The translations under genes were made by a program, and so were the position numbers. 64,000 bases of DNA from contig JARUPZ010000020.1 of NCBI GenBank assembly GCA_031213475.1, positions 1,860,001 through 1,924,000 of the forward strand, written 5' to 3'. The notes beneath the pieces are model-generated. The model was given only the letters and a program-made list of their open reading frames with translations, searched no databases and had not been told where the DNA came from. Of the stretch, positions 27,900 to 60,011 are shown in pieces. The stretch comes from Nereocystis luetkeana (Eukaryota; Sar; Phaeophyceae; Laminariales; Laminariaceae). Positions within the stretch are counted from its first letter, which is position 1; every line of letters begins with the position of its first letter.

Positions 27900-60011
<32,112 letters not shown>

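Follow-up and report, generated by a model that had tools for sequence, protein, structure and literature searches.

TACCWGGTA, a motif best read as the excision scar of a TA-inserting DNA transposon

How does a nearly perfect palindrome of nine bases come to stand 38 times in 64 kb of DNA? The stretch of 64 kb analysed here, called the window, carries TACCWGGTA that often, and 100 dinucleotide shuffles contain it 0.67 times on average and at most 3 times. A first-pass annotation had counted about 40 copies by hand and set them against about 2 expected for an 8-mer. The abundance is confirmed, and the expectation was no underestimate.

The excess extends across the genome. In the 465-Mb assembly, TACCWGGTA occurs 182,395 times, compared with 1,744 occurrences of a reversed-pattern control, an over-representation of approximately 100-fold. 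This amounts to 1 copy per 2,550 bp, or to about 1/148 TA sites, the genome total of TA being estimated at 26.9 million. The DNA added in this way comes to about 1.3 Mb, approximately 0.27% of the genome. All 20 sampled 10-kb stretches, one from each of the contigs C1 to C20, carry the motif, with 1 to 6 copies apiece. Together with the window and five non-overlapping 3-kb loci picked for carrying the motif, they form a first sample of 279 kb; a set of 333 kb adds the loci around transposases.

The phenomenon is real, and it is very probably best explained by transposon excision, each motif being a scar. The most likely source would be a cut-and-paste DNA transposon of the Tc1/mariner/IS630 kind that inserts at TA.

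Insertion at TA

TACCWGGTA arises through the insertion of 7 bp at TA. Examples can be found in MITE-1, a repeat family with a consensus of 105 bp, to which 59 copies from the 279 kb were aligned. The alignment has a clean extra CC..GG plus TA at a TA of the family for the scars at 35467, 39157, 47529, 53227 and 54389. At 39946 and 50878 it is less clean, and the copies differ around the site. Among the listed insertions of at least 4 bases, all seven complete CC..GG insertions stand at a family TA, at several positions. The first-pass annotation had read the motif as a pure insertion at TA within MITE-1, at the same seven coordinates. The coordinates are all correct and the reading stands: the insertions are found at TA rather than being no commoner there than elsewhere, and the same holds outside MITE-1.

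The individual scars within MITE-1 are documented to different degrees. TACCAGGTA at 39157-39165 lies in a forward-strand copy at 39109-39225 (ends by eye) of the form TA + TTACGGGGG...CCCCCGCAA + TA, and 35 homologues have only TA between its flanks. TACCTGGTA at 39946-39954 lies in a forward-strand copy at 39886-40001 (ends approximate, by eye); in 24 homologues a single base separates the flanks, taken as an empty site with an alignment shift. A double scar, TACCAGGTACCTGGTA, occupies 54389-54404 within a copy at about 54367-54493 and is seen in the motif count, the alignment and the flank test described below. The triple scar TACCAGGGTACCAGGTACCAGGTA at 53227-53250 (CCAGGG, CCAGG, CCAGG) has 23 homologues with only TA, and the 6-base variant TACCAGGGTA at 35467-35476 has 28. 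The 4-base variant TACCGGTA at 47529-47536 is seen in the MITE-1 alignment, and another 6-base variant, TACCATGGTA at 50878-50887, in an unclean alignment with a best flank score of 49; both belong outside the test set of separate flanks.

In the separate-flank test, the 50 bases on either side of a scar were searched apart, which kept the motif from biasing the alignment. A two-flank homologue was one in which the distance between the flanks was from -5 to 40 bases. In the 333 kb, 19 of 119 scar loci have such homologues and are testable. In twelve of the 19, homologues keep exactly 2 bases, TA, from one flank to the other; in a further two they keep 0 or 1 base, read as an alignment shift; and five loci are without an empty homologue. 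Exactly 2 bases separate the flanks in 134 of the 228 homologous places. The twelve loci comprise MITE-1 copies, two satellite units of locus L012, one unit of L009 and a second MITE in L026. Empty homologues read TA and filled sites read TA...TA, which means that the TA target is duplicated. A looser test with joined flanks agrees: 32 of 109 loci have homologues, and at 21 an empty homologue aligns without gaps, some of these alignments being poor. At L012:6970-8900, a block of inverted and tandem repeats, units are scarred in some copies and have an empty TA in others.

The motif count places the other scars of the window as follows. TACCAGGTA is found at 93-101, 1838-1846, 11049-11057, 16690-16698, 22355-22363, 23746-23754, 26675-26683, 31078-31086, 39300-39308, 51998-52006, 52113-52121 and 62928-62936, and also at 37973-37981, on the outer edge of a MITE-1 end. 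TACCTGGTA is found at 1-9, 62-70, 1629-1637, 1704-1712, 2481-2489, 8450-8458, 14400-14408, 17061-17069, 18932-18940, 30440-30448, 39267-39275 and 62362-62370; a further copy at 26156-26164 lies in a MITE-1-like stretch, and no empty homologue of it was found in the flank test. Both forms occur close together at 2551-2574 (TACCAGGTA at 2551, TACCTGGTA at 2566) and at 51837-51865 (TACCAGGTA at 51837, TACCTGGTA at 51857), and the double scar TACCAGGTACCTGGTA recurs at 11150-11165.

Decay, tandem scars and target preference

The scars decay as unconstrained inherited DNA does, unlike a maintained binding site. On both strands of the 279 kb there are 216 exact motifs (control 6) and 250 neighbours with one mismatch (control 96), and the neighbours are in excess at all nine positions of the motif. 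Transitions number 140 (control 36) and transversions 110 (control 60). By our own arithmetic, the excess ratio of approximately 0.73 corresponds to steady accumulation or to a mean divergence near 8%.

Scars also occur in tandem. The pattern TACCWGGTACCWGGTA is found 15,917 times in the genome (control 2), where a uniform spread would give 1,236, a ratio of 12.9. The idea that a scar recreates a preferred target and thus seeds tandems is unsupported, since the computed preference of the scar's own flank is just 0.85 to 1.7; the flanks of isolated scars, which are the training set, average 3.4. Re-use of good sites may account for part of the excess, and another part is without explanation. 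The 59 listed forward tandem pairs were read by eye as 23 AA, 17 TT, 14 AT and 5 TA. Adjacent scars therefore have like orientation in 40 of these 59 (one-sided p 0.004), an excess that independent events do not explain. A scan of IMG/VR for the double scar returned 9 contigs with one each, 8 of which have no further copy in the stretch examined.

Around scars outside MITE-1 there is a palindromic preference about TA of a transposase-like kind. It was measured in 172 flanks, after 30 MITE-1 flanks and 13 tandem flanks had been dropped and with one too short. A/T makes up 85% at -7, compared with 52% at all TA, A makes up 42% both at -6 and at -3, and T makes up 5% at -1. The chi-square value reaches 74.7 at -7, and no position between -24 and -8 exceeds 10.7. 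The variant CCAGGG/CCCTGG has the same signature (A/T 95% at -7 and A 85% at -6, 20 flanks). The TACCGGTA sites of the genome sample are without it (53 flanks; z -0.6).

Another TA-flanked palindrome of this genome, TATTAATA, is present in the window and occurs 146 times on both strands where 4.2 are expected (83 sites counted). Outside MITE-1 and simple repeats it has T-A-C next to TA (46%, 57% and 56% in 131 flanks), and MITE-1 insertions prefer T-A-C before TA (58%, 48% and 56% in 84 flanks). Because the target preference is common to both, TATTAATA is probably MITE-1's own excision scar, the ends of MITE-1 reading TTA...TAA, and the pair provides a positive control for the scar approach. 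Of the single interruptions of (TAC)n arrays in the sample, TTAA is the most frequent, with just 4 cases as against 3 for the next.

Scores built from the two targets separate the two palindromes. The score from the MITE-1 target gives a z of 11.9 for TTAA and of 0.5 for CCWGG. The score from the CCWGG target gives 14.8 for CCWGG, its training set, and 5.2 for CCAGGG, and does not pick out TTAA, CCGG, CCCGGG or CCACGG. Both are also high for microsatellite or AT-rich strings, and the CCWGG score also for strings internal to MITE-1, so that neither is specific alone. The target preference of TACCWGGTA differs from that of MITE-1 and TATTAATA, which points to another transposase. The first-pass annotation had called TACCWGGTA a second, different TA scar, and its target preference does set it apart from TATTAATA.

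Two further repeats were observed beside these. The palindrome TAGATCATCTA/TAGATGATCTA, centred on G/C, occurs 21 times in the 279-kb sample where 0.1 are expected, and may be part of a longer palindrome. A recent-looking repeat on contigs C1 and C2 has an identical AAAAACCTACCAGGTAAATCACAAGTATCATCAGA in 6 of 100 listed places and bears a fixed scar.

Could the motif instead be a functional palindrome bound by a protein, spread by point mutation and selection in the manner of an uptake signal or of HIP1, a palindrome of cyanobacteria? Such a site might well be nearly palindromic and in large excess across a genome, as TACCWGGTA is. However, it would arise by substitution and not by an insertion of 7 bp, and a bound site does not sit well with decay at all positions with a transition bias, with common tandem copies, or with a 6-base variant that has the same target signature. 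This makes it very improbable. Less credible still is a somatic assembly in which each motif is a junction of DNA elimination and marks sequence kept in the germline genome. In Paramecium, eliminated sequences are bounded by TA, and the very many TA-bounded junctions here, with donors nowhere visible, speak for such a process. Against it stand the mutations at the junctions, which resemble those of old inherited DNA, the position of junctions within MITEs, satellites and tandems, and the intact-looking transposase frames in the genome; no sign of such a life cycle was seen.

Scar spectrum and joining

The model favoured here is excision of a transposon, and it would proceed as follows. An element with terminal inverted repeats CCAG...CTGG would insert and duplicate TA. 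On excision, the transposase would nick the non-transferred strand inside each end, mostly at a distance of 3 bases and at times of 2 or 4, leaving short 3' overhangs beginning with CC. The host would then join the overhangs by a terminal overlap of one base. With 3+3 bases, the mispair of A opposite A could be settled either way, and CCAGG or CCTGG would remain between two TAs. Likewise, 3+4 would give CCAGGG, CCCTGG or CCATGG, 4+4 would give CCAGTGG or CCACTGG, and 2+3 would give CCGG, CCAG or CTGG. Provided that such scars are passed on and fade slowly, even a moderate set of hopping elements would leave far more scars than copies.

A spectrum of forms can be observed at one fixed site of MITE-1 (AAAAACC before TA), where the pattern AAAAACCTACC... 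is found at 2,000 places (control 172). Among 100 listed of these places, 66 are MITE-like. They comprise 39 CCWGG, 8 CCGG, 5 CCAG, 5 CCAGGG/CCCTGG, 4 CCA, 2 CCATGG and one each of CCACGG, CCAAGG and CCAGGGG, counts that include scars possibly shared among copies by descent. The other 34 consist of 7 with the same strings and no MITE-like continuation, 6 in another repeat and 21 that do not fit, one of which is CCA-GTCTGA-TGG.

At the same site, CCA followed by A, C or T is found at 172 places (control 39). The 100 listed among them include 25 CCATGG, 6 CCAAGG, 4 CCACGG, 2 CCACTGG, 29 CCATA, six forms found once each that carry filler or additional bases, and 28 others. CCAG followed by A/C/T and then C/G/T is found at 27 places (control 2), all of which were viewed, and CCAGTGG is found five times among them. 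Most of the forms fit ends CCAG...CTGG that were cut 2, 3 or 4 bases inside and joined by a one-base overlap; CCAAGG and CCACGG are not predicted by the overlap model.

The genome sample contains 108 CCWGG, 21 CCGG (without the signature), 1 CCATGG and 10 of the 6-base class. Since TACCGGTA is without the target signature in this sample, support for the 2+3 class comes from one MITE-1 site, and it is doubtful whether TACCGGTA belongs to the series elsewhere.

A 7-base form of the type CCAGTGG/CCACTGG was noticed at the MITE-1 site before it was sought across the genome, where it occurs at 293 places as against 47 for the control, a test that is not fully independent. This search demanded A/T at both -7 positions. 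The estimated share is 0.16% of CCWGG. If the two ends are cut at 4 bases independently of each other, the frequency of the 6-base class in the genome sample (10 vs 108) predicts a share of 0.18%, and the 6-base rate at the MITE-1 site (8/66) one of 0.37%, 2.3 times that observed. As expected from its rate, the form is found 0 times in a 336-kb sample. Its centre base is G/C in 40 of 50 listed places and A/T in 10. A stands at -6 in 7 of 20 flanks of the A/T-centred places, compared with 35 of 80 flanks of the G/C-centred ones. The A/T-centred places may include some scars outside the model's predictions, and G/C-rich filler is an alternative for the centres.

The first-pass annotation had proposed ends CCA...TGG with 3-base overhangs joined after the loss of two, one or no bases, which would give the series CCGG, CCWGG and CCATGG. 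The ends find support at the MITE-1 site in CCATGG (25 of 100 listed), in CCA-filler-TGG and in the CCAG forms, and probably read CCAG rather than just CCA. The forms of the series do occur, but the dominance of five bases (39, as against 2 CCATGG and 8 CCGG) is left unexplained by base loss and is explained by a one-base overlap. CCGG itself belongs to the series at the one MITE-1 site, whereas in the genome sample TACCGGTA lacks the target signature.

Joining without overlap is nevertheless the chief competitor, though an unlikely one. In that process, 3-base CCA overhangs lose one base and are joined blunt; CCATGG, CCGG, CCAG and CCA, all of which are found, could arise in this way, as could CCAGGG from 4+2 and CCAGTGG from 4+3. 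Independent trimming predicts, however, that CCATGG and CCGG together should be about as frequent as CCWGG. The ratio at the MITE-1 site is 10 to 39 (n=66), and in the genome sample CCATGG (1) and CCGG (21, without the signature) stand against 108 CCWGG. A third kind of joining would start from 5-base CCAGG overhangs that pair over their full length with one central A-A mismatch, much as the Sleeping Beauty scar TACWGTA would arise from CAG overhangs. Four G-C pairs would account for CCAGG/CCTGG and for the strict length of five bases. CCATGG and CCAGTGG/CCACTGG, with their frequencies, would remain unexplained, and the stagger of Tc1/mariner elements is given as two or three bases in the cited text (PMC7827188, PMC2642840); this origin is accordingly improbable. 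The overlap rule and the CCAG end, while unproven, are on balance likely.

Donor elements and known systems

The putative donor was sought through its ends. Among TA-flanked inverted repeats of the sample there is no convincing CC-ended element, and no element with ends CCA/TGG was found. Inverted pairs starting CC[AT] are parts of MITE-1, satellite scars or low-complexity pairs; besides these, there is one pair inside a larger inverted repeat of the window (4184-4967) and there are weak pairs, for example at L019:3809-4070 and L033:3097-3144. The repeat at 4184-4967 is itself large and near-perfect, with TA-flanked matching stretches. A second MITE among the matches is not convincing as a CC-ended donor. 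The 279 kb contain 170 half-scars, TACC.GG with no TA after it; these have no common downstream sequence suggesting an element end, and the best pairs of half-scars proved to be other repeats.

No donor was seen at the MITE-1 site among 100 listed of the 172 places with CCA[ACT], nor among the 31 of 31 viewed with CCAGGT[CGT] or the 27 of 27 viewed with CCAG[ACT][CGT]. Donors that would begin with CCAGG[ACG] or CCAG[ACT]A were sought in 100 listed of the 2,000 places, and none was found there. By our own arithmetic, zero donors in 336 kb allows up to approximately 4,000 copies in the genome, if these are short enough for the searched stretches, and the ratio of scars to such copies would therefore exceed about 40. 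To reach it, excisions need only continue at a low, steady rate for as long as a scar lasts, without any burst.

Transposases of the IS630/Tc1 type and of the DDE_1 type, with intact-looking frames, are present in the genome, none of them linked to CCWGG scars. A quick profile scan of the genome found 46 matches to PF03184 (DDE_1), no match over the cut-off to the mariner transposase model PF01359 and none to PF13358, a member of which was later found otherwise, so that the scan can miss members. The pogo-like DDE_1 loci (L029-L040, 12 of the 46 matches) and a single-copy IS630-like locus (L044) have no CC-ended repeats acceptable as element ends. The DDE_1 locus at L039:235-2424, which is pogo-like, has the inverted repeats TA-CAGTACCGGCC[A/C]GCTAGTAAG.

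A multi-copy IS630/Tc1-type element (L041), also considered as a donor, proved to be the relative of MITE-1. This relative (L041, L042, L043, L054) is about 4.3 kb long, has the inverted repeats TATTACGGAGGCTCATAATTAGTAGG and lies in (TAC)n/(TAG)n arrays. Its transposase frame of 493 aa at L041:1326-2804, on the minus strand, matches PF13358 (2.9e-12), and at 10 places the protein is covered in full or for the greater part, with 99-100% identity. A second frame upstream appears by eye to be a coiled coil. A DNA search with the MITE-1 consensus gave no match despite the abundance of MITE-1, which is a limit of that search. Elsewhere, at L011:2838-4199 on the minus strand, a frame of 454 aa has a NADAR domain (PF08719, 4.8e-42). 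It is reminiscent of a Gypsy lineage of the brown alga Ectocarpus, which is described in the cited text as having one such lineage that bears NADAR, and many Tc1/mariner families (PMC12477816). That the present genome is likewise a brown alga's is a guess.

The activity of transposons is usually gauged by the copies that survive; in this genome it is recorded in scars, and the family behind them would be nearly invisible to annotation based on copies. A fuller scenario, plausible but not quite probable, is a hit-and-run family of TA-inserting elements with ends CCAG...CTGG. It would have left about 180,000 inherited scars (about 1.3 Mb) while its survivors became too few to find, and its breaks would have been repaired by a single rule, the one-base 3' overlap. 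A single scar, neutral-looking and labelled by its target, marks one break together with its repair and could in principle be dated. Because scars trace single repairs, this lineage's rules of end joining in the germline would become directly measurable. TA-x-TA palindromes with a target signature are suggested as a route to other "ghost" transposons, and TATTAATA with MITE-1, a case with a known donor, indicates that such a search can succeed.

In Tc1/mariner excision, as outlined in the sources cited, a stagger of about 3 bases inside the end gives 3' overhangs, and end joining leaves a short remnant of the ends between TAs (PMC7827188, PMC4561436). TACCWGGTA is like the scars of Sleeping Beauty, mariner and Stowaway in its duplicated TA target and in what would be a remnant of ends between two TAs (PMC7827188, PMC4561436). 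Tc1/mariner footprints are usually given as 2-4 bp (PMC7913693), whereas here five bases dominate, the count has six figures and the donor is unseen. The end of Mos1, TA-CCAGGTGTACAAG in an oligonucleotide (PMC2642840), starts with CCAG, as the donor here would. Unlike with Mos1, the quick scan gave no PF01359 match over the cut-off, and there is no repeated CCAGGT[CGT] junction at the MITE-1 site.

For Stowaway elements, some footprints are described as longer and built from fragments of both ends, and in Triticeae different TIR-derived footprints occur at one TA site, with insertion beside an old footprint, as would be the case here (PMC1925063). In rice, insertions and excisions were tallied genome-wide between two species (PMC4423477). 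These studies, in the text cited, differ in covering one gene region or hundreds of loci (487 in rice), with known element families (PMC1925063, PMC4423477). A parallel within the same genome is MITE-1 with TATTAATA: an element that inserts at TA shares its preferred target with a palindrome flanked by TA, and a relative with an IS630/Tc1-type transposase was found; CCWGG differs in target preference and in the scar.

In C. elegans, end joining is described as the route of the soma, and breaks in the germline as mostly repaired from a template, so that excision is hidden there (PMC13148408). That a long haploid phase leaves more scars in a lineage is speculation. Among the titles and abstract openings searched, a coverage that leaves out most subscription journals, no report of such a set of scars was found. 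What is unusual about TACCWGGTA, and sets it apart from the known Tc1/mariner scars, is the number of scars and their excess over any donors seen.
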